Below are positions 1,863-64,000 of a DNA stretch of 64,000 nt, piece by piece. Made by a program: the position numbers and the translations under genes. The notes below the pieces were generated by a model. That model had not been told where the DNA came from. It made no database searches and saw only the letters and a list, made by a program, of their open reading frames with translations. Location: assembly GCA_018902385.1 (NCBI GenBank), contig JABSSW010000009.1, positions 848,418 to 912,417 of the forward strand, given 5' to 3'. Each line of letters begins with the position of its first letter. Position 1 is the first letter of the stretch. The stretch is from Physcia stellaris (Eukaryota; Ascomycota; Lecanoromycetes; Caliciales; Physciaceae).

Positions 1863-3038
1863 ATGAGTAGAAGATCCTTCTCTGCGGTACACCACTTGGG
1901 ACATGAAAATCCTCTGGTTAGCCTTACAGCTCTTTGATCACTACAATAACTTACCTTATACTTAGGGGATCCCCTCACGCAGACCTCCACCTCAAATCCC
2001 TAGGCGCGGTCTCCCACCCAAGCGCCGAATACCAAATGTCCAAAAAGTCGTTGCAGTCTCTTCTGCCAAAGGTGGAGTTGGCAAATCAACAATAGCAGGT
2101 CCATTGCCTATGCCACTTCTCCCACACCCATGATGTCTCATACCGCGCAGTCAACCTTGCTCTGCAGTTTGCGCGCAATGGCCTCCGAAGCGGGATATTG
2201 GATACGGACATCTTTGGTCCTTCAATCCCGACCATAATGGGCATGCTTGATGCTGGCGAGCCTCGACTCACTTCTCGTGAGTGTTGCATCGTATTCCTTG
2301 GCTTTATGGAGATTGATTCATGGCGGATGTACCAGAGAATCACCTCATACCTCTTTCGAACTATGGTGTCAAGACTATGTCAATGGGCTACCTTGTTCGG
2401 CAAGATGCTCCTGTCGCTTGGCGGGGGATGATGGTCGTGAAGGCTCTGCAACAATTACTACATGAAGTCGATTGGGGTGGGCTTGATATGCTCGTATTGG
2501 ATTTACCTCCCGGGACCGGCGATACGCAATTGACGATCGCGCAACAGGTGGAGCTAGACGGTGTGTATACACGTTGCCAGTAACTATGGATCGAGGAATG
2601 GTGCTCATGGCATGATTAGGAGTGGTTATTGTCTCGACCCCACAAGATGTCGCGCTCAAGGATACACTAAAGGGCATATCCATGTTTCAGAAGATGAACA
2701 TCAACGTGAGTTTATCACTGTCTAGGCTCCATCCTTCAGATAGCGCAGTTCCCTCTGACAAGCGACAGATTCTCGGCATGGTCCAAAACATGTCTACGTT
2801 CATCTGCCCGCAGTGTCACCATCAAACTAGTATTTTTGGTTCTACGGGCGCGAAGAAGGCTTGCGATGAACATGATCTGTACTTCTTAGGCGATGTCCCA
2901 CTCCACGAGAAGATATGCGATGATGCGGACAGGGGAAAGCCGACTGTGGTTGCAGAACCGGGGAGTAAGAACGCCGAGGCATTTGAAAACATTGCCAACA
3001 GAGTATTGAGAAGACTCGGGTCTGTGGGAACGTCATAG
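1863..3038 (+). CDS. IND1/NUBPL-type iron-sulfur P-loop ATPase (Mrp/NBP35 family)
   Basis: Six exons can be joined: 1863-1916, 1966-2098, 2151-2276, 2336-2560, 2620-2705 and 2769-3038, giving 297 aa with all phases consistent. The start [11 protein letters not shown] is Arg/Ser-rich, which fits a short mitochondrial presequence, and an in-frame stop lies just upstream. Seen motifs are the deviant Walker [11 protein letters not shown] (exon 2), the [10 protein letters not shown] switch (exon 3), the LPPGTGD motif (exon 4), [11 protein letters not shown] (exon 5) and the metal-binding pair CPQC (exon 6). In this family these define an ATPase that assembles or transfers [4Fe-4S] clusters; mitochondrial IND1/NUBPL serves respiratory complex I. 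The protein ends in RLGSVGTS. The exon 5/6 junction reads MNINILGMV where relatives usually have two more residues, so that splice site is the least certain. The presequence is what favours IND1 over cytosolic Nbp35/Cfd1. Confidence 0.88.
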
Positions 3039-3802
3039 GGGCCTTGGTTGATACGAGAAGATGCATATATGGGATAAAGGCTTATGAGGTATGTACATGC
3101 AAGTATGTATTCTCAAGTCCTCCGCACTACTCCATGTGGAGCTCGGTAGGCCACTTCAAATACATAATCTGTAGTACTCTACCAATGGCGCTTCTGGTTT
3201 TCAATCTCCGATGCAGTCTCTGTCATCATCTTTTGGATCGGTGATGAGAGATCTCGCTCTCCCGTTTCCTAGGCCAGGGGGTTATGATTTGATATCTGAC
3301 CGCATGACAGCCATTCGGAGGGGCCAGGGATTTTTGGGTCATACACCAATTGTCCAGGACCCAATAGACGATTGTCTATGATATCTGACAGAACATCTGT
3401 ATGCTTACATATTTTACTCATTATTTCAGTCAAATTTGCTATGAGGGGCATGAATATTTGTCTCGCATTGCCGTCGCTAGGATGTAGTATCACGTGTTTG
3501 CGTGATTCCTTCTTTGAAACACGCTGAGTGGCCGAAACGTTAGCGAATTTAAGCGCCATGCATCCAAACTGCATCCCTGCAGCTTGTCTCACATGGTTAG
3601 TGAACACTGGCCCTTTCAGATAGATTGCTCACTTCTGCATTGCCTGCTCCAACCACTCTTTACTCGTATCGTTACAGAATCCCTATTTGCTACATTTCAA
3701 CGGCTATATTCTGATCACAACGAGCACGGAACTGCACTTTGAACCAAGAACAAGTCCGAACAACCGCCGGACCATAGCAGCTCCCAGCTCTCTTCACTCA
3801 TC
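3039..3802. other. intergenic, no supported gene
   Basis: An open frame on the minus strand (3269-3607, 112 codons) has no recognisable motif and no clear codon bias. The last ~120 bases, ending in a C-rich stretch, are probably the 5' untranslated region of the gene that starts at 3803. Confidence 0.5.
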
Positions 3803-4770
3803 ATGCCTGGAGTTCGTAAGTACTTCCCAGTCCTCAAACCTCAGCCCATTCTGCTCACATGCTGTCTCTCCTCACGTTTCATGAGTCTAGTGAGCTTCTC
3901 CGCTGACAGCTATCTCCGTAGCACCCGACGCCCTCGCCCAGGTCAAACGCGGACTCAAAGGGCTTTTTGGCCGCAAAAAGAAAGCCCACGCCCAATCTCA
4001 AGCCGATCCGTCCTCTTCCCAGCAGCAGCATGTCCCCAGTCAAACTACCTCAGAGGCACAAAACCCCACAATCACGACGACTGCCCCGTCGCCGAGCCCG
4101 GGTCAGGGCGCTGAGGGGAAGAACAGGATTGGTATGTTTACATCTCCCACATTAGAGTACTCGCCCTAGGCAAAAGCGAGCGCTGAAGCGTTGCGAAGGG
4201 CTGGGTGCTCTATTTGGGAATAATTTGTAATGATAGTTGACTGATGAGAATCTACGAACAGATGACGGCTTCCCTCCCCCTCCGCCAGGTCCTCCACCTC
4301 ACAACAGCGACGGCGGGGCTTCTTCTCTCCCATCGCAAGCCCAGCAGATCTCCGAGCCAGCCTCTGTAGGCGAAGCAAAGAACATCGATCTCAATCCATC
4401 ATCTGCCTCTGCTCCGTCTACAACGACAGCTCCTACGACCACATCGACCGCCCCAGCTGACACACCCGCTACGACTATGAATGAGACCACCAACCCGTCT
4501 GCCACAAGCCGTACGGCCGCTCCTTCTGTGGCCCCGAAACCAACAGTGGATTCGAATGGCATGAGCGCTACTTCAGGCCCTTTAGATGATTCTATGGGCA
4601 TCGGGGCTTATGAGCCTGGCAAGACGAGCGTCGATGATGCAGATGGGAGCAAATTTTTACAGAAGGAGAGGGACTTAGAAAATGATATGCCGGTTGGGGA
4701 TGTGCAGGCAGGACAAGGAACAACTACTTCTCCTGAAGCCAGGAACGTGGGCACTGCTGCAAAAGTTTGA
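3803..4770 (+). CDS. Ser/Thr/Pro/Ala-rich low-complexity protein of unknown function
   Basis: Three exons, 3803-3815, 3922-4131 and 4262-4770, give a continuous 243-residue protein. The tiny first exon encodes MPGV and is joined through a split Pro codon to PDALAQVKRGLKGLFGRKKK. That gives a short amphipathic basic helix (residues about 6-26) that looks like a conserved anchor. The rest is disordered: a Gln/Ser-rich part, a proline run (PPPPPGPP, near 4270), an Ala/Thr/Ser-rich central region, and an acidic end with FLQKERDLENDMPVGD. Introns are 106 and 130 bases with GTAAGT and GTATGT donors. I know of similar N-termini in hypothetical proteins of filamentous ascomycetes but no function. The frame, splice sites and conserved N-terminus support a real gene. 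Confidence 0.7.
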
Positions 4771-46489: not shown

Positions 46490-47472
46490 ATTAGGGGATT
46501 TTGGTGGGTGCGAGGGGTGGATTTTAGATGGTTTTGAGGTAGGCGATGGAGGATTGGGTTTTGAGAAACTTTGGGGTATAGGTAGCTTGATTGTGCGAAG
46601 AAGGATCACCGGAAAGTACGAAGAAATCCTGGATATAAGAAGTAGACTCATTTGGACAATAAATCGGAAGAGCATGGAATGTTTATAGAGATTCAACTTC
46701 TGGAGTAGTATCCGTGCGTAAGGTTGAGGTTGAATCAAAAGCGAATTGTGGCTTGAGAGGGTCTCAACATTGAATTTGATTGATCGGATGCTGGAATCGT
46801 TTGAAAATCATAGCATTATCATTTTGCATTTCTCCGGCAGTAATCGAGTAAATCATGAAGGTATGTAATACTGTTGAGGATGCTGCACGCCACAAGGCCA
46901 ATAGATAGTTCAATATGCAAGAATACCATCGGAGCCCAGAATCATCTCATCAAATCGTCGACTTTATTTATGGTATGCTTCTAAGTCACTCGAGCCTTCA
47001 AATATCTAGAAACGGAGACAAAGAGAACAATGTTCCCGGGAATTACTTCTTTCCATAAGACTTTCTTTTTTTCCTTATAAACCCTACTCCGCATAATAAA
47101 TCTCCTCTCGTCACTACCCGCTCAACCTTTATAAAAGAGCGGGTCAAAGGTATTGCATAGTGAACAGTCCCGAAAAAGACTGTGACGTGTAGAAAACATC
47201 ATCTTTTGACTTCGTCTCAAATCGCGTATTCGTAGGTCTATAAAGTACCCACAAGATCGGTTCCTGATCAGTTAATCAATTCTCTTCATGCTTTGCTCCA
47301 CTATGCAACATCTTTGACCCATTCTTTGTTTCGTAGCCCACCTTTCCTCTTACCATATCCAGCTTCCAGATCTCCATCTCCATCCCAATTCCAATCCCAT
47401 TCTCCCTCACCATCGCTACATCTTCATCAGTCTGCCCCTTCATCATCCACATATATTCACACCGTACAACAC
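46490..47472. other. intergenic spacer with one CACGCCACA copy
   Basis: No gene is supported. A plus frame at 47293-47481 is a low-complexity Ser/Pro/His reading of a CT-rich stretch. Confidence 0.5.
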
Positions 47473-47760
47473 TTACACTAATTTCCAGAGAATATAATCA
47501 AACCTATTAAAAACCCTCCCGATGCCAACGGAGCGGACAACGAAGACCGGGATCACCACCATAGAAAGCAGTGGACTCAAGAGACACACAATGACCCTCC
47601 CAACACTTGGCTTTTCCATTAATATGCTGAAAGCAAGCCGCCAGAAGCTTATTACGGAGGATGATATGTAGAGGAACAATACGAAGAGGGCGAGCAAAAA
47701 GATTGAGACCGGTATGGGGATCGTACGAGGACGAGCTTTGGGCGAGGTGGAGGAGACCAT
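47473..47760 (-). CDS. small two-span membrane protein (95 aa), orphan, at the edge of the AT-rich block
   Basis: Start MVSSTSPKARPRTIPIPVS at 47760. Spans lie at about 16-40 (PVSIFLLALFVLFLYISSSVISFW) and 54-76 (RVIVCLLSPLLSMVVIPVFVV), with a short basic or aromatic tail ending ILWKLV. Single exon, minus strand. It ends the series of small membrane genes and lies under 200 bases from the sharp change to AT-rich sequence, a location often occupied by fast-evolving genes in fungi. Confidence 0.58.
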   Translation of the reverse strand: MVSSTSPKARPRTIPIPVSIFLLALFVLFLYISSSVISFWRLAFSILMEKPSVGRVIVCLLSPLLSMVVIPVFVVRSVGIGRVFNRFDYILWKLV

Positions 47761-47940
47761 TTTCGGAGACGACGTGTGATGATAGTGGATTCTGTTTTGA
47801 TGGATGGGTGAGTTGGGTATTTGAGCTAATGCTCCTGAAGACTTCTGTATAGAGACTTTGGTGATTGGCTCGGCCAGCGAACATCGTCTATGCAAAAACA
47901 TTTTACCTGCAGATTGACAGTTTCGAAATCTGAAAATGCA

Positions 47941-50900
47941 AACCGCGCGTGACGTTATTAACGTGACGCTATCGTATAATCAATAAAAACTCGAATTTTA
48001 TTGATTAATTTTGACACGTGTAATCGCGAAAATGAAATCGCGTAAACAAATCATGTTGTGATGATGTCGTCGTTTCATTTTTCGTAACAAACATTTTCGT
48101 TTTTATCGCAACATCATTTGTTTAACAATCAATGTTTTGTTGATTTCGTCAACATTATATAATTGACGTACGATGTAAAATGTTTGAAATCAAATCGATT
48201 CGATCACAATTTATCGATTTTGAAATCAACGCGATACGATCATATTTGAAAAAATTATTTTCAAAAAAAACATACATCAAACGAAAATATTTTTTGTAAC
48301 AAACATTTTCGATTTTATTGTATTACAATCAATTTCGCATATAACGTTTTTTGTTTTCGTTCAAAATCATTTTTGACGTACAATGAAAAATATTTAAAAT
48401 TAAATCGATTCAATCATCGTTTTTAAATTTTAAAATCAACGATATACGATTTTTTTGAAAATATTATTTCAAACAAAAACAAATAACAAACGCAAAATAT
48501 TATTATCATTTTTTTTATTATCGTTGTTCGAAATTTCGACAATTCGATTTTGTTATTGTAAAATTATTAACGATATACGATTGAATTCGTTTTTACAAAT
48601 TTCGATTAATTAATCGTTAACAATTCGTTGTTTTTGTTTATAATGATTTGATCACATCAAAATGACGAACAATCAATTTTTCGCATTTTTTACAATCGTC
48701 GAAATATTTTTTTCGAACGAATCAATTGAATTTGTTGTATGATATCACATTTTTGAAACAAAACATGACGTTTTTATAATTTACGTCGAAAATCATAATT
48801 ACAATATCAAAATTAAACGATTAAAATATCGTTCAATTATAAAAAATAATTCAATTATCACGAAACGTTTTAAAATTACGTTTGAATGCGATTAAAATTG
48901 TTCATAAAAAATCACATGTTACAAAAACGTTCGTGCGACGTTATGAAAATTCACAATTAAAACGAAATTTTATAATTATTCGTTCGTTTCAACGAAAAAT
49001 TTTCGTGTATATCACAAACATCAAATAACAAATAAAATTTTGAAAAAAATTTCAATTGCAAACGACAAAAATCAATTTTTTAATCGACAAATTCAATTTT
49101 CAATTTAACAAACATAAATATAATTTCGATCGAAATTTTAAATGATTTGATCACGAATCATTTCAATTATTTTTTCATTTTTCAAAATATTTACAATGCG
49201 AAAAAAAAATCAAAACGCGAAAATTAAACATTGACATTTTTATAAAAATTTTGTACAACGTTTTTAATTTCGATTTTATCAATTGATTTTGTTGTTGTCG
49301 TGATGCGAAATATCACGATCGTTTGAAAAAAAAAATTTTTGTCAACAATTATGTCGTTCAATTTTTATTCAAAAATTTCGAAATTTTCGTGTTGAATAAC
49401 ATTTGCAAAATCAAACAATACGAATTGTTGATATTTGTTTTTTTGAAACAAATTTCATTAAACATTAATTTTTATTGAAATTTAATTTTTATTAATACAA
49501 AAAATAAAACGAATTTGACATGAATGATGAAAAATATCGATCAATTGTATCGACAATTAAATTTTCAATTTTTTTTCGTAATCGTTTTTATTTCGAATTG
49601 AATATTGTTCGAAATTTTCGAATTTCGATATTCAATAACAAAAATTTTTTTTTTCATTTATTACATGAACAAAAAAATTCGAAAACATTGCAAACATTTT
49701 TTTAACGATGACAAAATCGAACAAAAATGATCATCATTCATGAAACATTGATTCGAAATTGTTTACGTTTTCATTCGTGAAAATTACAAATTAATTTGAA
49801 AAATTTGAAAAATAAATACGAACGTTTTTATCGCGACGAAATCGTGTATTTGTGCAAAATTTGATTTAATGTTTCATAACGACGTTGTTTTTGCAATTAC
49901 AACATCAACGACATATTGCATTTCAACGTTTATAAATTTTTTCGAATTGAAAACGATTATCGCATTTTGAAACAAATGTTCAAATATTTTATTGACAATA
50001 TAAAATTTGTAATCAAACGTTTGAAAATTTTATTTTTTAAATAATATAAAAATTATTTCAAAATCGTTGAACAAATTCGAACGAAATTAACAATTACGAA
50101 ATTTAATCGACAATTTTATCGCAATTTGTTTATTCAAATTACATTTCACGTTTTGCACAAAATCGAAAAACAATACAAACGATTTATCAAAATCAAAAAA
50201 AAATCGAATACACATTTTTTTGAATCGTGTATTGATATTCACAATATCACAATAAATATTTCGTGTATTCACAATATACGAAATATTTTGAAACAATTCG
50301 AAATCGATCAATTTAAAATGTATCGTTGTTTTCGTTTGAATTGTTTCATTTTCATTTCAAAATGTTAAAATTTAAATTTTTTTTATCATATCGAAATTTG
50401 ATATTATTTCGTTTTGAAATTCATTGATCACGCACGTCGATTCGAATTCGAATTCGAATTGAAATATTTTGACATCATGAAACGTTTTTTGACGTAAATT
50501 ACGTGTTATGAAATAATCGCGATCGATTTTAATCACGTTTCGTTTTTTTCGTTTTATCGATTGACGATAAAAACGATGTTTTTAATTTTGATCGTGTTTT
50601 CGATAATAATAATGTCGTCGATATTGATCGAAATGACGATTTTGTTGTCAATAATGACGATATTTTCGATATTGACGATAATGACGAAAATTCAATTGTT
50701 AATCATTCGAATGACGATATTTTTCGAATTTTGTTTATGTTTTCGATAATGATAATATTTTCAATTTTGTTCACGACGAAAACAATGTTTTTAATTTTAA
50801 TCACGTTGATGATATTGACAATATCATGAATATTAATTATATTTTCGATATTGACGACGTCGACATTATTAAAATGACAAACAAAAAATTTGCAATTATC

Positions 50901-51022
50901 GAATTGAAAAACAAACATCGAAAATCACAAAACAAAAACGACATAACAATTCGAATCAAAAAACGAAAATCAAAATTCATCGATCGAAATTCTTTTGATC
51001 ATAAATCGAAATTTTCAAATAT
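47941..51022. other. AT-rich decayed sequence, no genes
   Basis: Base composition changes sharply near 47,940. C occurs almost only before A or G, and G almost only after T or C. Frames here (for example 50561-51041) are chance or long-dead repeat sequence. No tRNA or intact gene was seen. Confidence 0.85.
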
Positions 51023-51205
51023 TGTAAAAATTCAAAACTAATAGAATTAATGTGAAAGATCGTTTGATTTTATATAATAAACTAATCGCAAAAAACGCAT
51101 AATTGATTTTGACAAAATTCAAAATCAAAATTAAATTTTGAATTTTAGACGAATATATCGTTTCGATTGTCGAAAAATTTTCTGTCAAACAATTTGATCA
51201 TTACA
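51023..51205 (-). repeat. 3' LTR of the gypsy element
   Basis: 183 bp, TG..CA ends. It aligns without gaps to the copy at 57968-58150 with 15 differences, all transitions. Confidence 0.9.
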
Positions 51206-51526
51206 TTTTTTTTTTTAAACAACAAACAGATAAACAATCATATTGCGCATCATCAAGAAAATTCTCGCAAACATCGTAAGTTGATTTCAAAACGTGTACG
51301 AAATAAATATTTGAAACAAGAATGTTAAAATCGTTTGAATGTCAACAAAACATATTTTTTTTATTTTTCGACAACAACAGCATGATCGAAAAATTCTGAA
51401 TCATTTGTAAAATAGTTTCGTTTTCAGACAATTTGTATGCGCAACTGACTGATCGAACGATAATTTATGACAACAATCGCGCGCGAATTGTCAATCAAAC
51501 GACGATAAATAAAATTCAAATCAACG

Positions 51527-52432
51527 ATGATCGTGATTAATAATGAGCAGTTTTTAAATCGTTTGACGACGCAATTTCGTGAAAAGCATTCGAATTTGCG
51601 TCGAACAATAATAAAAATGAACATCGAATATTTCGAAAATGAAAATCGCTTTCAGATTACGCATTTTCAAAATTTGACAGTTATTCTAATTCAAATAAAA
51701 AATTTTTCAAATTTTCAATATTTTTTCGTTGAACGCGTACGATGATCATCAACGTTAACAATTGATTTAATGTAACGATCGAAAAATTGAATTTTCATGC
51801 AATCAATGTTCGAACAATCGCTCGTTCATTGTTTGTATGATTTTCACAAACGTCACGTCAATCAAAAAACATGCGACAATTGCATTTACATGCATCGTGT
51901 TTTCGAATGTTCTTTTAGCAAATACGTTTTCGTTACAAGTTTTGATTCGATAATTGAGCAACACAATATTTCAATTACGTTCGTTAATCGAATTGATACG
52001 CGTGTTCACGACGATGCGATTGACAATTTATCGTCGTACTTTTTTGTGCGAATCAATCGACGAAAATTTGAAATATTATCAATTTCAACGATTTTGTTAT
52101 CGTTTTCATCGCAATCAATGTTTGCAATGACATCGATTGCGACGACGATTCAAACGCAATTCGATCAATCATCAAATGAAAATGAAAATATTTTCATGAA
52201 CGATGAAAACGATTCGATGTTTTCGTCGTCAACTTCATCGTCGTTCGATATCGCGAATGAAAAATTCGAATCGACGAACGAAAACGAAATATCAAAGTCG
52301 AATCAATCAACACAATCAACGATTGTTGCACAATCATCGATTGTAACACAATCATCGATTGTTCAAAATTTCGAAACGATGTCGTTTTTTGATTTTCCGA
52401 AATCAAAATCATTTTTTTTTGATTTTGATTGA
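51527..52432 (+). pseudogene. antisense open frames inside the retrotransposon, between integrase and 3' LTR
   Basis: Two plus-strand frames (51527-51745, 72 codons; 51797-52432, 211 codons) run opposite to gag-pol in a region where most frames are short. The second contains TCDNCIYMHRVFEC, a C-x2-C-x9-C cluster, followed by a long Ser/Thr/Asn/Gln-rich tail. They may be parts of an accessory protein of the element or captured host sequence. Decay prevents a firm call. Confidence 0.45.
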
Positions 52433-53399
52433 TTGCAACGACGATTTGAACAACGTCGTCAAAATAAAAAAAATGATACACGTTTCGAACGTGTTCATGT
52501 TTTCGTCGTCAAATCTAAAAAGTCGATCGTTGCGTTACGACGTTAAAAAAAAAAACGTTCGATCGTTCGATGTCGTGATATCGATAACGTTGAAAATTAA
52601 AAATTTCGTAAAACATGATTTTCGAGATGAAAATTGAAAAAAGCGATAAATTTTTTTTGTTGAAAATTAGAGATTCGACGTTGAGCGTTATTTGTTTTTA
52701 TGAATCATGTTACGAAAAATCAATGTTATAAAAAACGATTTCATCGTGTTTGCGTTACATGCGACGATACGAAAAAATCAATCGATTATTTCTTGATTGC
52801 GTTGATTCATGATTTACTCGTATTTTAAATCAAATTTCACAGAACGAAACAAAGATGCGAAAATTTGAATAATAAATACGATTTTTTTCACTTTTCGGAA
52901 ATCTCAAAAGGAAAGAACGACAGTAACAACAACAATAACATAAAGAAAAAACAACAAAAAAATTCGATTTTTCGCTTGAAATCACTTTGTATGAATCGTA
53001 CAAAATTCGACAAACATTTTTTTTTTCTAAATGATTCATATTATGTCATCGTTTTCAAAAAATTCATCATTCGAAAATGACATATAGTTTTTCATTCGAA
53101 TTTTTTTTCAGCATTTCGAACTTTGCGCGATTTGTCACGTTTTTTTTTTCGATGTTACGACTTTTTCGCAACGACGTCAATGATTTTAAATTGTTTTTGC
53201 TTTGAACGAACGTTCGCGATTTCTAAACATACGTCAATTTTTGTTCATTTTTCATTCACATTGATCAATTTCATTCGATCATCATTGATAAAATACTTAT
53301 TTGACGACTTTTCAGACGATTTGAACACATAAATATTCAAAATTTCATTGCGTACGATTTCGTAAAAATCATATCAATCGATTTCGAATTTTTTGATTT

Positions 53400-54980
53400 T
53401 TTCGTTCATATCGATATCTTGTCGTTTTCGTGAAAAATTTCTTTTGATTTTCGCATTTCAGATTGTTTTGTTTTTAACACGTTGCATGATTTTTTTTGAA
53501 TGTTTTTTGCGCGTTCACGATTCAAAAATGAAATCGAATCTATTTTTTCGTCATAGAGATTTGAAATTGACTCATCGACATCGTCAAACAAAATCGAATT
53601 AACTTCATAGAAAAATAAAAAAATGAAAAGTCAATCGTCGTATGCGTTCGAATTCGCGTGACGAACAAAATCTGATTCAAATAAATGTTTCAATTCTTGA
53701 TAAAATTTTCAATGCAATATTTGATCAACATATGATTCAAAACGTCGTTGAAACGTTTCACTGTTTCGTTCGTTCTTGAATGATAAAAAATAATATTTTT
53801 ATGTTTGATTTTAAGCAACGCAAATGTCTTGATCATAACAAATGTTCACAAATTGACATTTTTATCAGTGATGATTTTCTTGAAAATTTCGTAATCACGA
53901 TAAATATCGTTGATCACGAAGTTCGCAAAAGTTTCGAAAATTGTTTCAGAAATAACGCGTGCAACAAATCATTGATCGTATAATCAATAACAATCACGAT
54001 TCATTTGTTATCATTGATAATGATAAATAATGATTCGATCAAATCGAAATTTCAACGTTCAAATGATTGATTTTTATCAGATCAAGTTTTTGAAAAATGC
54101 ATTACATCTTTTTGACGTTTTTGAATTTGACGATCAATTGACATTCTGAACACGTTCGCACAAAATGTTTGATGTTTTTGCGCATGTCGAATCATCATTG
54201 TTTGATTTTAATGATGTTAAACAAAATCGTATTCGAGCAATGATCATAAATTTTGTGAACATAATTCAGATAATTTGCACGAACTCAAAATTCGATGTAA
54301 AAATTCAATTGTCAACGAAAAATTTCGATGATGCGAAACATTATCGTCGTTCAATTTGAATTGATTTTCATATTTTTTCAATTTCGCATTTCATTTCATT
54401 TTATTTGACAGAATTTCATCGCGCGTATAAATTATCATCGTTTCGTCGAAAATGATAATACGCAAATTTATTTGCAAAAATCGCAAACGATAGTCGCTTT
54501 TTCGATTCAAAATATCGAACACAATCATTTCAAATTTCGATTTATATTTGATGTTCAAACGATATTTTCGAATTTAACGAATCAACGAATCAGACGATTC
54601 GATGATTTAAAATCGTATTTTCAAATGTTGCAATTCGACGTGATTCGTACGCATCAAAATTGTCGTTTCATTTTTCACGTAACATTTTCATTTTCAAACT
54701 TTTTTGATGATCAAAAGTTCAGGCGTTCGTGAATCGCATAATTACGTTCGACGAAAAAAATGCTTTGTTTTCGAAAACATTAAAATGTTTTTGTCATCGA
54801 AATCTATTTGATAAAGTATCGTTTTCATTCGAAATTCGAAACATCGATTTCAATGATGAACGACAAAAACGTATCAGATTGTGTCAATACACGATCATTA
54901 CACATGACGTTTTTGATGATCGTAAAAACGTTTTTGATCGAAAATGTCATAAACATCGATTTGTATTTGCGATTTTCAGT
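53400..54980 (-). pseudogene. RNase H and integrase remnant of the gypsy pol
   Basis: The frame around 54,300-54,120 on the minus strand contains the integrase zinc-binding region ending HFVRTCSECQ (CSEC codons at 54152-54141). Two adjacent TGA stops at 54197-54192 fall where gypsy integrases have two tryptophans, as expected from G to A change. The RNase H part lies at about 54.98-54.45 kb. Confidence 0.75.
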
Positions 54981-54999
54981 TTTTGAATAAGCTCGTAAA

Positions 55000-56450
55000 G
55001 TGACTCAATAATGATGACGAAATTTTTATGAATTTTCGATAATAAACACAAAAATTCAAAAAAAAACGAACATCGTGTATCGTTTGAAACGACGATCAAT
55101 TTTGTATAATTTTCAATTTGATTTCGTTCATGCGCATTTCATCGTTGTCAACGATATGTTCACAAAATTCAATTTGCTGTTGAAAGAAAAAACATTTCGA
55201 CGATTTCGCATAATAATCATGTTTATGAAAAATTTCAATCACGAGTTTCACATGTTCGAAATGTTTTTCGTCGTTTTTGAAATAAATCAATATGTCGTTC
55301 AAATAAACGATCACAAATTTGTTCAAATACGATTTCAACATATCATTCATGATTGTTTGAAAAATCGCAAAAACATTAATCAATTCGAAAAACATGACGC
55401 AAAATTCATATTTGTTTCGTTTGATATTGAATGTTGTTTTGTGACGATTTTTTTCGATCACATTGATTTGTCAATAGTCATTAATTAAATCAATTTTGTT
55501 AAAATTTTTCGCTGTTTCGATCATGTCTAAACAATCTTGAATTTTCGACAGTGAATAATCGTTTTTTTGCGTTATCGCGTTGAGAATTTTATAGTTTATA
55601 CACATACGTCAAAAGTCATTTTTTTTTTGACAAAGAAAATTGATGCTTTTCATGACAACGTGCTTGATCGTATTAAATTTTTTTTTGTTAAATAATCGAT
55701 TTGAATAGCTTGTTCGTTCAACTGCTTCTTAAAAAACTCGTACGAAAACTTGTTTATTGATTTAACGTTTTCAATATCAATACGATGATTTTGCGATCTT
55801 TTCGGAAATGATTGATTCGAAAAATCGTTTCTAAAGATTTTTTCAACACATCGAAATTCAAAATTTTGTTCAGTTTCGCGTTGTCGATAATGTGTTGAAT
55901 AAAAGCAAATTTCTTAGACGATTTGACGATTTCTTGATCAATAATACGAACAACGTACAGATAAATTTGAACGTTTTCGTATCAATCGCTCGAAAGCACG
56001 TCTCGTTACAATTTGAATTTTAAATGATTGATTTTCGAAAAATTTGCAAACGAAAATTGTGATCTTTCATGTTCGCAAGCAGAAATTTCTGATTTTCGTC
56101 TGTTACACGCATATCGAGCGTATTGTAATCAGAAATTAGACGATATTTTTGTCAAAAATTTTCGTCTAAAATCAAATCGTTATTCATATTAAGAATCAAA
56201 CAATCAATGATTGTATGAAATTCATTTTTGTTTTAATTAAACTTAGTGAAATCAACGACGTCAACAGTCTTATCGCTTTTCAATTGCATTTTGTCAAAAA
56301 AATGTTGTAATTTTAATTTCAACAAATCGACAATGCGTTGAACAATGAAACAATGAAAAACATTCGAATTTGCAAATACAACGACGCGACGTTTTTTTTT
56401 GCGTTCACGTCGAAACGTGTCACGTTTTCGACATACGTTTATTAGCATTC
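55000..56450 (-). pseudogene. protease/reverse transcriptase remnant of the gypsy pol
   Basis: The best-kept frame is 55461-55096. It holds the palm motif as YLNDILIYF (55305 downward), where active enzymes have two Asp after Tyr-x. The first Asp codon is changed to Asn (AAC at 55299-55297), consistent with a G to A change after G. The protease lies somewhere near 56.2-56.5 kb but is not readable. Confidence 0.8.
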
Positions 56451-56699
56451 AGATTGATTAAAAACATCAATTCGTTTTCGATTGTATTTTTGAAATGTAC
56501 GAATTTTTTCACGAATTTCAAAATTTCAAGATTTCGACGTTTTTATATTTGACATCTTCGAAATCGTGATTGTGATAAACGAAATTTGTTCATTTTCAAT
56601 TATCGAATCGTTTTTTGTCGATTTTGAACGATTAAATCGCGATCATCGTGCAATTCATGCGACGACGATTTCAAACGTTTTTCGAATTTCTGTTTTGTC

Positions 56700-57831
56700 A
56701 CGATTTTTATCGTCTCAACGAAATCGTCAATTTGACGAATCGGCTTTCTGACACGATAAAATTTGAACAAATTGAAAACAAATGATTCGTCTGATCACAA
56801 TTGTAACACTTTTTCGCGAAAACATTCATAGCGTTTAAATTTTTTTGTTGTTTATTGTTTTGAACGACAAAAATTTGTGTTGATTGATTCGTCGCTAAAA
56901 TTGCTCGAAAAACACGAAAAACATATTTTTTTGCGTTGACATTTTCGTGTTTCGAAACATTCGTCATCATATTGTGCAAACTCATATTCGAATACATTTG
57001 ATTCTGATTGAAAATGTAATTTCGAATATCGATTTTAATTCGTCACGATATTTTTTTGATCGCAAATTGATAACGTGTTCGCGAATGTTTTCGTACATCG
57101 ACGTGAATTTGTTATTGTAATCGACGATTTTGTTGTATGCGTCAAACTGAATGATTTCGTTGTATATTTTGAGAAATTTCTGTTGTCAATCGTGCTCGTT
57201 TCAACGAATGAAAAAATATTTTTGAATTCGAATCATTTGTCATCAGATTTTTGCAAATGAACAAACAAAAAAAATAAATCGTTCGACAATTTTGTTCTCG
57301 AAATACTGTTCGATGACGATGAAAACGTTGATTTTATTGACTAAATATGAATTAAACACATGAAATTTCTCGTGTTTAAACAAAAAATTTTGATTTCAAC
57401 ATGATTACGTTCACGTTTCTGAAAAATTGAAAAACGACGATCGATGATTTAATGTCGAAAATGATTGCGTTTCAATTTGCGCGTCAAAAAAATAAAATCA
57501 GACAAATGATCGTCGTCGTTAAAATCAACGATGTTCGCAAAAAATTGATTGTGATTCATGAATAAATTGATTCGTGATGTACGTTCGCGATCGCGACGAA
57601 ATTGATCATTTAATTGAACGACGGCGTCATTTTCGACGACGACATCATTTTCGATCAAATCGACGTTTTTTCGTTCGAATTTTCGACGATTTCGTCGACG
57701 ATTTCATCGAATTGATTGTCGAATTCTGTTGCAATGTTCGCAAAATTTGAGAAGTCGAAAACAATCGTACGTTGTGAAAAATCATCTGAACGATCACGAC
57801 GACGTTTTAAATTATCATCTTGAATAAACAT
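56700..57831 (-). pseudogene. gag remnant with CCHC zinc knuckle
   Basis: The frame opens at an ATG at 57831-57829 (MFIQDDNLKRRRDRSDD) and breaks within 70 codons. A later frame, 56997-56707, contains C-x2-C-x4-H-x4-C (residues 64-77), the nucleocapsid knuckle. Confidence 0.75.
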
Positions 57832-57967
57832 GATGATTAATGAGTAAAAAATTTTAGAAATTTTGAATTCTCAAATGAATATCAAGTGCAGCAGAAAGCA
57901 ATTTGAATTGACAAAAACAATGAACACAATCAATACATTGTAAATGTAAAAAAAATGATGTTATCGA

Positions 57968-58150
57968 TGTAAAAATTCAAAACTAATAAAATTAATGTGA
58001 GAAATCGTTTGACTTTATATAATAAATTAATCGCAAAGAACGCATAATTGATTTTGACAAAATTCAAAATCAGAATTAGATTCTGAATTCTAGACGAATA
58101 TATCGTTTCGATTGTCGAAAGATCTTTTGTCGAACAATCTGATCATTACA
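57968..58150 (-). repeat. 5' LTR of the gypsy element
   Basis: 183 bp, TG..CA ends; partner of 51023-51205. It retains more CpT/ApG sites in its middle part (for example AGATTCTGAATTCTAGA) than the left copy. Confidence 0.9.
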
Positions 58151-58254
58151 ATATGACGATTCGAAACAAAAACGAAATTGATCGAAATCAAAATTACACG
58201 AAAAAAAATTGTCAAAATGACGCAATCGATTGAAATTCAAAATATATTAAAACG

Positions 58255-58312
58255 TAATCGAAATCGCGATGATCGAAATCGCGATAATCGAAATCGCGAT
58301 AATCGAAATGAA
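58255..58312 (+). repeat. 15-bp tandem repeat, about 3.5 copies
   Basis: Unit GATAATCGAAATCGC, within a plus frame (58178-58486) where it would encode a DNRNR repeat. The frame is otherwise unremarkable. Confidence 0.8.
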
Positions 58313-60215
58313 AATGTCACACGCAATAAAATGATAATTGAAAAATCAATAAAAATTTTCAACGACAATTTCGATAATTTTGACAATATTTTCGAAAAAA
58401 ACAATTATTTCGATCGTTTGTTTAACGATGATAATTATAAAAACGCGAATAACGAAAATCATGATTCGAATTTGAACATTAAATAATTCAATTTTTCAAA
58501 AAATTGAAAAATATAATTGTTTGATTAAAAAATTTAATAAAAAGCAAAATGTTCAAAAACAATCACGTCGACGTTGATAATATTATAACATGTATTCATA
58601 AATAAATTTCAATCGAAAAATATTTTTTCAACAATTAAAATTATCAATACAATTATTTTTCGACGTTCGATGTTATTATTTTTGAAAATGTTAAAACGTA
58701 CGATTAAAATCATATATGTATACGAATTTCATGAATTATCATTAATTTTACATGAAAATGCAAAATACGTAAAACAAATTCATATCGCTGATATTTGTTT
58801 TTCGTGTCATTTGACGTTTGAAAACGAATTTTTTTTCGTTGAAATTCGTTATTTCGAAAATCAAACATCAGTACACTTTATATTCGCATAACGTTATCAA
58901 CAATACGTCATCGTTTTTGAAAATTCAACAAAATACGACATCAAACATTTTTACATTTCAAAAACTGTTATGAAAACGATACACATGATTTTCGCATGTA
59001 ATTTAAATAGTTTTTTTTCACGAAAAAATGAAAAAAATTGAAAAAAATTAAAATTGCATAAATGTGATTATCGAAATCTTGAATGAAAAAAAATAAAATC
59101 AAAAATTCAAATATTTGAAATATGAATAAAAATATTGATTACAATGATTTCGTCATTAATAATTTGAATTTTGATATTATTATTCGTGATATGAACATTT
59201 TGTATAAAAATGAATGTATTGTTTTGTAAAATACAAAAAATTTAATATTGAATGCAAAAATTATTATTAAAAATGTGTTTGTTGTATTATATAATGTTTA
59301 CATTTCAATGTTAAATTCAAATATGTTAATTTAAAATTTTAATATTAACAATACAAAACAAATGTATTTTATTTCATTTTTTTTCGTTTAAAACAATTAT
59401 TTTGTTCATTTTATAATTGATCAATTTGAAAAACAATTTTTCAAAAATCAAATCATGCATGACAATTATAATAAAATTCTTGATATTTTATAATAAACAA
59501 ATTTCAAATAATTTCGATAAATAAATTCAAAAAATTTGAAAAATAAACATTATTTTTGCGAAAAATGTGACGATAAAAAAACGATTAAATAAAAAAATTA
59601 ATGAATATGTTTAATATTGAATATTGATTTTCGTGAAACGATAATTGACACAAATGCAAAAATTTCGAAAAAAAATGAAAAAAAAAAAAACATGTAAAAT
59701 TTTTTTGAATGACGTATCGTGTTTATATATGCAAATAAATAATCGATGATTTAACGAAATAAAATCGATTTGTTAATTTAATAATTAAAATTGCGATTTA
59801 AATTGTAAATGATAAATTTTTCATTCAAAAAAATGTTCGAATTCGATTCGTGTAATAAACATTTGATGTTACAATTGAAAAAATCGAACAATAACAATTT
59901 TGAATTTAATAAAAACGTTGTAACAATATTTAATTATCGAATTCGCGTTTCGACATTTAATTAATTAATTTGAAATCAATGTTAAAATGTGAAATATAAC
60001 AAATAACAAATATCGTTTTTGTTGTTATGATGACGATATTGAAAATTCGTGAATATTTTGCGCAAAATACGAAATTGAAAAAAAAAAAATTGTCGATTGA
60101 TTTGATTGAAAAACGATAAACGCGATAAAACAACGATTGAAAATAACAAAAAAAAATTATAACAAAATAAAAACGATGTAATAATATCGTGAAAAAAATC
60201 ATGATTGAATAAAAA

Positions 60216-60410
60216 TGAAATGATCGTTTGAATTGTAATCGTTTGCGCGAAATTGAAAAAATCGAAATGATCGTTCGAATTATAATCGTTTAAACGAAAT
60301 TGAAAAAAAAAAAACAAAAAAATCGTAACATGATAAAAACGAAATAATCGTTTGAATTTAATAATCGTTTAAACGAAATTGAAAAAAAAATCGTAACAAA
60401 ATAAAAACGA
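60216..60410 (+). repeat. imperfect tandem repeat, three units of about 47-77 bp
   Basis: Units start at about 60217, 60264 and 60341 and share GAAATGATCGTTTGAAT, TAATCGTTTAAACGAAATTG and a following A run. The spacing differs through the length of the A tracts. Confidence 0.7.
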
Positions 60411-62264
60411 AACGAACGCATTTGAACGAAAAAAATAATAAAAAAAATTGCAAAAAAAAAAAAATTCATTGAAAAACAATTTGATTTAATTATTAATTAC
60501 GTCGTCGATAATAAAATTCGATGTTATTGATTTCGTTTTGTTGAACGAACGCCATTTTATCGCGATAAAAGTTTTTAATTTTTGACGTGTATAAATTTAC
60601 GACGTAATGAAAATTATAAAAACGCGTTAAATCGTGTCAAAAACACATTTTTAAAATTCAAAATTTCGTATTACAATTTATCGTCGTAAAAATGAAAAAT
60701 CAAACGTCGTGTAAAAAAAAAAACAAAAAAACGAAAAATTAAACGAAAATGCAAAATTAAATTTCATCGATTTCGTAATAACAATTTCACGAATTGATGA
60801 TTATAAATCAACATATAAAATGAAAAAATAACATAAAAAATAAAAACATTTATTTTATCATATTTATTGATCAATTGTTATAATTATTAACATTTCGTTT
60901 TAAATATTTATAAATTGTTGTTTTCGTATCATTTCAAATTGCAAATATCAAAATAAAAAAATCATTTTTTTTATTCAAAACAAAAATTAAATATCATCAA
61001 AACATTTTAACATTAACAAAATCAAATCAAATCACAATTTATAAAAAATAATTGTTTAATAATATCAAATTTATTAAATACAAAAAAATTGTTTATTAAT
61101 CAATCGCATTTATTAAAAACATTTTCGTACGAATGATATAAAAAAACAAAAAAAAAAAAAAACGAATCAACGAAATTTATAAATGAAAAATAAATACAAT
61201 GCAAATTTTTTTGATACGAATAATGTCAATTTTTTCACAATATCGTGTATGACGATGTTTGCAATAAAATCGTTTTTATAACAAAATTTCTCAATACATG
61301 ATTATTGAAATAATATTTAAACATTTAACGTTCGACGTCAAATTTTTTTATGCGTCGCAACACGTTCGATTTTATTTTTTCAAATTTCGCGTTTTATTCG
61401 TGATCGTTTAATTGTTGAAAAAATTTAATATAAATTACAAAATGATGTTTTACAATCGCGAAAAAACATGATTGTTTCAAAAAAATTCAAAAAAATTCAT
61501 AATCAAACAACAATACAAATTATTTTTTTGCAATTTCGTATATAACGAAAAATGCAATAAAATCGACACATAACATGATTATTTTTTCGAAACAAAAAAT
61601 TCAATTATGTTCAATTTTATTTCAAATCACAATTTCATTTCATTATTTTTCGTTTTCGTCGATTGATTCGACATTTTTCATTTGAATATTCGAAAACGAT
61701 ATTTTCGTCAACGTTTGATACATTTTTTTGTTTGATTTTTCGTCGACACAATTTTCAATATTTTTTTCGTTTTCATTCAACATCGTTTGATATTTTTTTT
61801 ATAAATCAAAAAAATGAATTTTTTTCAAAATGTTTTTAAAAAACACATTTACAATTTTTTTGCGACGCGAAAACGACGCGATTTTGAAATTCAAATTGTA
61901 AATGTTTTGTAAAACGAAAATTCGAAATTTTTATTTTTCAATTGATCGCGAAAATAACGATTTGAAATTCGATAAAATCGAATCGTTCGATTTCGAAATC
62001 GTCAAATTCGAAATCGTCGAAATTGTCGTCGTGTTCAAAATGAATTTTGTGTTTATATTAATTCGTTTTCATTTTGAAACGAAAATAATAATTTATTTTT
62101 GTCGATATCAATCGATTTTTTGTAATCGTTCGCGATTGTCGTAAATTGATTGATGAACAATTTTGACAATTTGATTGTGTTACGAAAAAACACGTTTCGA
62201 AATTCGACAATGTTATTTTTATAACATTGATACGAATTCGCGTGTTTTTATTATGCATAAAAAA

Positions 62265-62295
<31 letters not shown>

Positions 62296-64000
62296 TGAAA
62301 AAATCGAAAATATTATTTTGCGATTGCAAATTTTACGCGTATCAATTTACATCATAAATCAATAATCGTTTTATTCGTTTCGAATAAAACGAAAAAAAAA
62401 CATATTCATAAATATTTCGACGTTTTGTGTTTTCATCAATATTCGTCGTATGTTTCAAATTGCGTTGATTGACGACAAACGCGAAAAACACGATTGTTCT
62501 GTAACGACGTAATAAATGCAAAACGAACGTAACATTATGATCGATAATTTGAAATTGCGCCAACAATGTTATAAACATTGAAATTGAAATTTATTTGAAT
62601 AATCAAAATTTTCACTGTTTCTGAATTAATAATTTGAAACGAACGAAACGATCGACGTTCGTCAAAAAATTATATAATTGTCGTACCAATAAATTGAAAA
62701 AATTGCTTGATAAACGCCACGAAATTTCGCCATATCAATCAACGTGTGCGTATTTTTTCGTATTTACTATGACGAAAATATTGACGTTGATAATAATTTC
62801 ATCGAATACGTTTAAACATATATCAAAATCATATACATTTTCGATTCAATAATACATTTACAAACGACATTGATTCGCGTTACGAAACATGATAATAATG
62901 ATCGTGATATTTAAACAACAAAAAAATTGAAATTCATATAAACAAAATAATTTTACAAACGACGTTAATGATAAATATATGTTGACGCGAAAATATTTAC
63001 ATGTTGAAACAATAACAATTTATCAAAAATATCGTTGTTAATTAAAACGAACAATATTATCGTAATTGCATAATATCAAACAAAAAATTAACGATTATTT
63101 AATTTTAATTGTCATTTTTCGTCAACGTACGAATATAATATATTAAAAAATAATTTAAATATCGAAAATATTCATATTTTCATTGTTTTTTTAATCGAAA
63201 ATATTTATTTTTAAAAATCACGATAACGTAAAATCAAAACACAATTTACATTATGAATTACAAAAAAACAATAATACATGAAAAAATAATATTGTTGAAA
63301 AACATCGTTTGAATTCAAAAAATTGATAACGTGTAATCATTATAACAATTTATGAAAAAAATATATTTATCGTTGTCAAATCGATGTTTTTGCATATTGT
63401 ATTCATAAAACAATGATGTTAAAATGAATTTGTTATATTTGATTTTATTCACGTTAATTTAATGTAATTTTGTTTTTTAAATTTCGACGTTCAAATTTTC
63501 ATTCGTGCGAAAACGTTAATATAAATTTTTCAAAAATAAATATTATATGTTATATCGATTGTGCATTAATCGTGATAAAATTGTTTTAATGTTTTTATTT
63601 CATATAAATTTATAATTATGATTTCGTGATGTTAATATTACGAAAATCGACAAAATTTAATTTCGCAAATTCGTTTAATTTATTATTCGTTTTCAATTTT
63701 TTCGTTTTTTTGTTTCAATTTGCAATCATTATATTACATTGTTGCAATATTTTTTCATCATGACGATGAATTGTAATTCGAAATTTTAAATTTCAAAACG
63801 TATTTTGACACGATTCAACGCGTTTTTGAATTTTTACGCGTCGTAAATTTTATACACGTTCAATTGTAATCGTGCGATCATGTTTCGATAACGACGAAAT
63901 AAATCGTTTTTCATATCAATACGGCAAATTGATTTTTTTAATCATTAACAATTTTACGATTTGTTACGTTTTTTTTTTATAATTTAAATTAAGAAATTTG

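Follow-up and report, generated by a model that had tools for sequence, protein, structure and literature searches.

A repeat block in the lichen fungus Physcia stellaris depleted of cytosine before pyrimidines, probably by RIP-type mutation with a changed sequence context

A stretch of 64,000 nucleotides from the lichen ascomycete Physcia stellaris (Lecanoromycetes, Caliciales, Physciaceae), called here the window and corresponding to positions 848418-912417 of contig C9, raises the question of how a repeat block can lose almost every cytosine that precedes a pyrimidine while keeping those that precede A or G. Accounts of repeat-induced point mutation (RIP) in fungi, and the tests used to find it, usually centre on CpA. 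An earlier note on this DNA had proposed that C changed to T before pyrimidines, with CpA and CpG spared, unlike in classical Neurospora RIP, and had suggested a different deamination or methylation system. The explanation favoured here, which we consider probable, is that the block consists of repeats in which a RIP-type genome defence has mutated C before a pyrimidine. The genome assembly analysed comprises 43,974,083 bases in 147 contigs. The published genome note on the species describes 46.57 Mb in 184 scaffolds with a GC content of 43.32%, obtained from axenic ascospore cultures, and the term "repeat-induced" is absent from its text (PMC7513301). A search using rDNA as a marker gave 0 matches.

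The block occupies the right-hand end of the window, which is also the end of contig C9 (912,417 bases), and contains a younger gypsy long terminal repeat (LTR) retrotransposon (Table 1). Positions 47941-64000 (GC 0.255) hold 985 CpA, 7 CpC, 986 CpG and 115 CpT, compared with 3166, 2944, 2457 and 3124, respectively, in positions 1-47000 (GC 0.495); CpA is kept while CpC and CpT are depleted. When CpC and CpT are combined as CpY and counted on both strands (GpG and ApG on the complement), CpY accounts for 25 of 1995 C/G sites (1.3%) in the parts outside the gypsy element (47944-51022 and 58151-64000), 210 of 2103 (10%) inside it and 12176 of 23656 (51%) in the unaffected positions 1-47900. Among 200 mononucleotide shuffles of the block, none had a CpY fraction below 47%. 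The earlier observation that outside the gypsy element nearly all C stand before A or G is therefore correct, and the two lines it had singled out, 48661-48720 and 49201-49260, show this at 10 of 10 and 7 of 7 C. GC is 0.494 in 1-47900, 0.236 in the left part of the block, 0.295 in the gypsy element and 0.217 in the right part, with 17-26% GC per kb where the block is saturated. In per-kb counts, the CpC and CpT fractions both round to 0.00 at 48001-51000 and 60001-62000; at 51001-59000 CpC is 0-1% and CpT still 6-12%. The CpY-poor sequence is real but starts abruptly near 47944, not at 47941 as first reported: CpY occurs at 47969 and 47990 and next only at 50992. Homology to other copies begins near 47900, slightly to the left of this edge. 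In the gypsy element, which the earlier note had set apart, CpT is partly kept (.097 of C contexts) and CpC is lost too (.003, or 0.3%).

The direction of mutation was determined in another transposon family of the same genome. A copy on contig C5, L035, was recognised by its stop-free open reverse-transcriptase frame and used as search query. Of the 41 rows that matched, one is L035 itself, one a 95% copy on contig C12 (L036), and 39 lie at 69-82%. These two high-GC copies (C5:1164500-1168500 and C12:58500-62500), which persist alongside the 39 rows at 69-82%, are normal in GC and dinucleotide content, and each has an open frame of about 1,000 codons. They served as reference at sites where both agree, for comparison with eight mutated copies from the 39 rows, the next eight by score, a choice that favours less-mutated copies. 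C has become T at 3444 of 3750 CpC sites (92%) and 2325 of 3358 CpT sites (69%), with 138 of 3643 CpA (3.8%) and 42 of 3625 CpG (1.2%) changed. The order is CpC > CpT >> CpA > CpG, the inverse of that in Neurospora. Across the eight copies the change spectrum shows C>T at 41%, G>A at 43% and any other change at no more than 0.5%, with about 0.5% of A/T positions changed. The 5' base has little effect, CpC ranging over 89-94% and CpT over 62-74% among the four 5' bases. The same order holds in the least-mutated copy, L039 (CpC 356/466, CpT 163/415, CpA 7/456, CpG 2/454;.764/.393/.015/.004), and in L046, the most mutated of the eight (.974,.819,.055 and.013). Mutation is less frequent at CCC (81%) than at CCA or CCG (96%), which would be expected if in CCC the middle base is often the first to become T. 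A column tally of the gypsy family, which lacks an unmutated copy and was therefore limited to columns with at least one surviving C, gives T shares of 86-92% at CpC (few columns, 61 and 80 cells), 81-83% at CpT, 13-15% at CpA and 4-8% at CpG. Both the proposed context and the departure from classical Neurospora RIP are borne out by the directional comparison, in which the changes lie at CpC and CpT rather than mostly at CpA. Intrinsic AT-richness of the elements was rejected for the L035 family by the comparison with its high-GC copies.

Copy L039 also preserves strand-specific patches. Between reference positions 200 and 1200, mutations on the minus strand affect 77 of 83 CpC, 20 of 45 CpT, 0 of 76 CpA and 0 of 62 CpG, compared with 9 of 66 CpC and 3 of 52 CpT on the plus strand. 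The same bias is found at CpC in positions 2400-2800 (23/23 versus 3/13), and outside the patches mutations lie on both strands. Near-exhaustion of one strand beside an almost intact partner speaks for a processive single-strand event, and patches switch strand within one copy. Copy L040 has counts near-equal to those of L039 at 1400-2400 and 2800-4000 and additional plus-strand changes within the patches; both copies seem to descend from one mutated ancestor, L040 having been hit once more. In L041, strand bias of this kind was not seen.

C:G to T:A transitions are concentrated in repeats. The extent of the process was sampled with one 1-kb piece from each of contigs C1-C20, always at position 300001. 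Two of these 20 pieces are AT-rich in both halves and contain 0 CpC and 33 CpT among 543 C contexts; the other 18 (36 half-pieces) are normal, with CpC at 23% and CpT at 27%. None of the 20 pieces, a small sample, was AT-rich with a CpA signature. Set against the window values, the published genome GC suggests that the process may have reached roughly one quarter of the genome.

With CpY lost, TGG becomes TGA and codons for Pro and Gly disappear; CAA, CAG and CGA survive. Both retroelements and DNA transposons are affected: the best 150 of 527 candidate reverse-transcriptase rows contain 250 TGA, 33 TAA and 3 TAG stops (10 rows stop-free), and ten rows of DDE_1 transposase remnants contain 44 TGA, 3 TAA and 0 TAG (one row stop-free). 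In the mutated copy L041 the longest open frame, of 264 codons, lacks Pro, Gly and Trp and has 12 Gln, 5 His and 8 Met; the unmutated L035 frame of 1,024 codons has 74 Pro, 50 Gly and 13 Trp. A database search with the L041 frame found 214 relatives, 120 of which were listed. The top 33, all ENA-sourced, total 8,726 residues with 0 Gly, 4 Pro, 330 Gln, 191 His and 231 Met. Among the 120, Pro and Gly are both absent from 69, number at most two in 98 and exceed two in 22, counts to be read with the bias that a Pro/Gly-free query draws Pro/Gly-free relatives; P0182 and P0224 retain proline. The signature is thus present in other database records, as records rather than assigned species. Three viral-contig scans and one genome-contig scan aimed at DNA of other lichen fungi found no relative, and other species were judged by amino-acid composition. 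In 41 of the 120 listed proteins (P0121-P0240) Pro and Gly are absent yet Trp is present, which suggests that TGA was taken for Trp by a gene caller. In this way fungal contigs with CpY mutation may mimic a code-4 organism.

Genes of the RID and DIM-2 types, which the earlier note had recommended looking for, are encoded by this genome. A PF00145 profile search returned four pieces representing three genes, on contigs C3, C5 and C6. The C3 gene is DIM-2-like and open across 1,118 codons. The C5 gene, 99% identical to hypothetical protein G7Y79_00005g016670 of Physcia stellaris, carries PPCQFFS and EQT, with later motifs in a downstream exon. The C6 gene (L001, C6:790057-794028) is more divergent, with PPCQSFS and EET in place of EQT, and its two in-frame TGA both lie within apparent introns with GT...AG ends. 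From their Pfam domain and known motifs we take the C5 and C6 genes to be RID-like; a RID homologue appears to be encoded intact. The naming of methyltransferase classes draws on Amselem 2015 (PMC4352252). A quick tree of 61 rows (58 chosen from 240 listed relatives, plus the three genes of this genome), with the DIM-2-like gene as a very long-branched outgroup and no named N. crassa RID among the rows, places the RID-like genes, with their PF00145 catalytic domain, apart from DIM-2. In this tree the C5 gene groups with proteins some of which come from named lichens (Heterodermia, Dirinaria, Usnea), and the C6 gene falls within a 14-row clade (SH-aLRT 99) that includes Heterodermia and may constitute a separate subfamily. 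Heterodermia aff. obscurata has one gene of the C5 type and one of the C6 type.

The locus itself is a nest of two repeats (Table 1). Matches elsewhere to the left part of the older element number about a dozen at 90-99%, plus one at 72%; most begin near 47900. An uninterrupted copy exists on contig C14, where C14:231070-237128 and C14:237125-240259 match the two parts with a 4-base overlap; because these adjacent stretches match both, ~47900-51022 and 58151-64000 are one older element split by an insertion. The inserted gypsy element is bounded by LTRs of 183 bases each, and the ATAT on both sides is a 4-bp target-site duplication. The two LTRs differ at 15 of 181 columns, 14 of them C/T differences at CpT and one at CpG, with no transversions. 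The gypsy element is both younger than the element around it and less exhausted (CpY 10% versus 1.3%). Its matches in the genome number 43, itself counted, 33 of them at 84% identity or more, and in 27 of 30 loci fetched CpC makes up 0-0.9% and CpT 0.4-13% of C contexts. No high-GC copy of the gypsy or of the older element was found among the matches listed. One gypsy copy, L028 on contig C59, has flanks with a GC of only 0.14, below expectation from CpY loss alone at a start of about 50% GC.

Table 1. Coordinates of features at the nested repeat locus, in window positions unless a contig is given.
Feature	Position	Strand	Description
Older repeat element, left part	47944..51022		CpC/CpT essentially absent on both strands; CpY substrate/product ratio 0.002
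Younger LTR retrotransposon (gypsy), inserted in older element	51023..58150	-	LTR pair; reverse-transcriptase remnant
First LTR	51023..51205		Starts TG; ATAT directly before
Second LTR	57968..58150		92% to first LTR; ends CA; ATAT directly after
Reverse-transcriptase remnant, PF00078	55165..55629 (C9:903582-904046)	-	2 stops, both TGA
Older repeat element, right part	58151..64000		To contig end; CpY nearly absent; ratio 0.007
Flank, unmutated	46643..47900		Duplicated at 95% beside the C23 sister copy
Dispersed repeat of ~75 bp at block edge	47825..47900		30 short matches at 76-94%; CpY kept in window copy

The nested locus is duplicated on contig C23 at 95-99%. The segmental duplicate, C23:651107-668583, includes 1.26 kb of the unmutated flank and runs into the end of that contig. 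Comparison of the C9 locus with its C23 duplicate over 9802 columns gives differences at 32 CpT, 20 CpG, 19 CpA and 3 CpC sites, with 11 transversions. Dating the process from this duplication was abandoned, as the differences are few and mixed.

Repeat concentration, single-strand patches and the presence of RID-like and DIM-2-like genes together point to a RIP-type process with a changed context. Of the earlier suggestion of a different deamination or methylation system, the changed context stands; the wording was too open, as a RIP-type process is indicated. Duplicated DNA would be recognised in the sexual cycle, as in RIP, and an enzyme resembling the RID-family cytosine methyltransferases would act on one strand of the duplex over about 1 kb or more, reading the 3' neighbour in its state at that moment. 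One such event may be represented by the clearest patch, where 93% of CpC and 44% of CpT on the presumably attacked strand are converted, with CpA at 0/76 and CpG at 0/62. Repeated rounds on both strands would lead to DNA almost without CpY. Candidate mutators are the C5 RID-like gene or its divergent C6 paralogue, perhaps assisted by the DIM-2-like C3 gene. A more specific proposal is put forward tentatively: a RID-family mutator, possibly of the C6 clade, would have evolved 3'-pyrimidine reading and would use up some 90% of the CpC of one strand in a single event. With CAA, CAG and CGA left intact, the defence would operate through TGG>TGA and loss of Pro and Gly codons instead of CAR>TAR stops, and it may exist elsewhere in fungi and be missed by CpA-based surveys.

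Several observations weigh against these interpretations or limit them. CpA preference, the usual hallmark of RIP, is not seen (CpA 3.8% versus CpC 92%). For a role of the divergent paralogue in setting the context, the one indication is its presence in the genome. Wide occurrence is tempered by at least two lichens that are positive in CpA-based surveys, that is, of the classical kind. The CpA columns of the gypsy family vary more (13-15%) than in the directional test, and the C9/C23 duplicates differ at CpA and CpG sites too. The 1.26-kb flank, although duplicated at 95% identity, is unmutated and without CpY bias: its 1255 columns against the C23 duplicate show C/T differences at 11 CpA, 10 CpT, 7 CpC and 3 CpG, and 19 transversions. 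The high-GC copies L035 and L036, 95% alike, likewise persist; their C/T differences lean mildly to CpY (84 CpY, 57 CpR; 43 transversions). Taken together, the flank and the surviving pair indicate that the process either is not universal or works intermittently. In N. crassa, RIP requires a length of at least 400 bp and an identity of at least 80% (PMC3017866). Retention of CpY in the ~75-bp edge repeat is in line with a length threshold, yet the 1.26-kb duplicate is unmutated too. No leakage into the single-copy flank was seen at the one boundary checked.

Other routes to the same loss have to be considered. Methylation of CpY in repeats, for instance by a DIM-2-like enzyme, followed by long-term spontaneous deamination of 5-methylcytosine, is an unlikely source: a DIM-2-like gene is present and the 32 CpT differences between the C9 and C23 duplicates imply some CpT loss after duplication, but the contrast between strands of L039 at CpC over 1 kb (77/83 versus 9/66), with about 0.5% of A/T changed, is that of a burst and not of a two-strand clock. 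An APOBEC/AID-like cytidine deaminase editing retroelement cDNA or transcribed single strands could leave C>T patches on single strands. Known deaminases of this type, however, read the 5' neighbour, which matters little here; patches switch strand within one copy, and the TGA signature shared by DDE_1 transposase remnants disfavours editing of cDNA, making this route improbable.

Nanopore miscalls at modified C are conceivable in that nanopore data were combined with Illumina data in the published hybrid assembly (PMC7513301). Such an artefact is nevertheless very improbable, since strand patches and patterns shared between copies do not resemble miscalls and the 33 ENA-sourced top relatives, which may or may not be nanopore-based, show the same loss of Gly and Pro. 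Dipyrimidine damage by ultraviolet light, to which a lichen thallus is exposed, would suit CpC and CpT, both dipyrimidines, but would be expected neither to stop at a repeat edge nor to spare 18 of 20 sampled pieces. It was rejected, its probability being negligible, because TpC is a dipyrimidine as well and yet TCA changed at 29 of 987 and TCG at 9 of 1095 sites, as against 737 of 787 for ACC and 970 of 1086 for GCC.

A RIP-type process in P. stellaris would resemble that of Neurospora in its repeat-concentrated C:G to T:A transitions, its AT-rich blocks and its RID-like and DIM-2-like genes. It differs in context, the reported N. crassa order being CpA>CpT>CpG>CpC (PMC5496416), and in failing the published RIP thresholds (product >1.15, substrate <=0.75, composite >0; PMC7882544); none of the 31 block windows passes these, and neither does any of the 94 normal windows. 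Badet and Croll 2025 (PMC12543289) conclude that a preference for CpA is common to RIP-like defences, and RIP in Paecilomyces is of the CpA type (PMC6300479). This preference is a usual hallmark and not a strict definition, as departures are in print for T. reesei, where CpA and CpG are about equal and CpC comes last (PMC5496416), and for Microbotryum. CpA, CpT and CpG signatures were listed by Amselem 2015 (PMC4352252). CpG-directed RIP-like mutation, reported at TpCpG in Microbotryum and in Rhizoctonia AG8 (PMC4352252, PMC4014442), shares with P. stellaris a non-CpA context in fungal repeats but has the opposite 3' neighbour, CpG being the best protected site here (1.2%).

RIP of the CpT type is closer. 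CpT>TpT is reported as a target, in places the dominant one, in Magnaporthe, Botrytis, Sclerotinia and the Neurospora element Tad1 (sources including PMC4352252). The nearest precedent is Talaromyces marneffei, in which CpT is a strong or dominant RIP change (PMC3464222), a comparison made on CpT alone. CpT is a target in P. stellaris as well; the difference is that CpA is also mutated in the CpT-type cases other than T. marneffei, the control fungi of PMC7882544 having strongly positive CpA indices. In the available portions of the CpT-type sources, CpC is not shown as the best target with CpA spared. The survey of Clutterbuck 2011 appears to use a CpY class (per PMC4188875). No report of CpC-first, CpA-sparing RIP was found in the literature searched, which did not cover that main survey; CpT-rich RIP is already in print. 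Among lichens, Cladonia rangiformis has strongly AT-rich repeats with RID and DIM-2 homologues, as P. stellaris does, and a ripped peak at ~16% GC compared with 17-26% per kb here; the terms "dinucleotide" and "CpA" are absent from the text on it (PMC12542154). Cladonia metacorallifera and Gyalolechia flavorubescens have 5-9% RIP by CpA-based indices (PMC7882544), so these lichens show classical RIP and the CpA kind has not been lost in all lichens.

In the single-strand patches, what seems to be a single event has been captured in a wild fungus. Index-based surveys can call a saturated block RIP-negative, and RIP may consequently be under-reported in some fungi. The inverse specificity of P. 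stellaris provides a natural contrast for finding the residues with which RID-type enzymes read the 3' neighbour.

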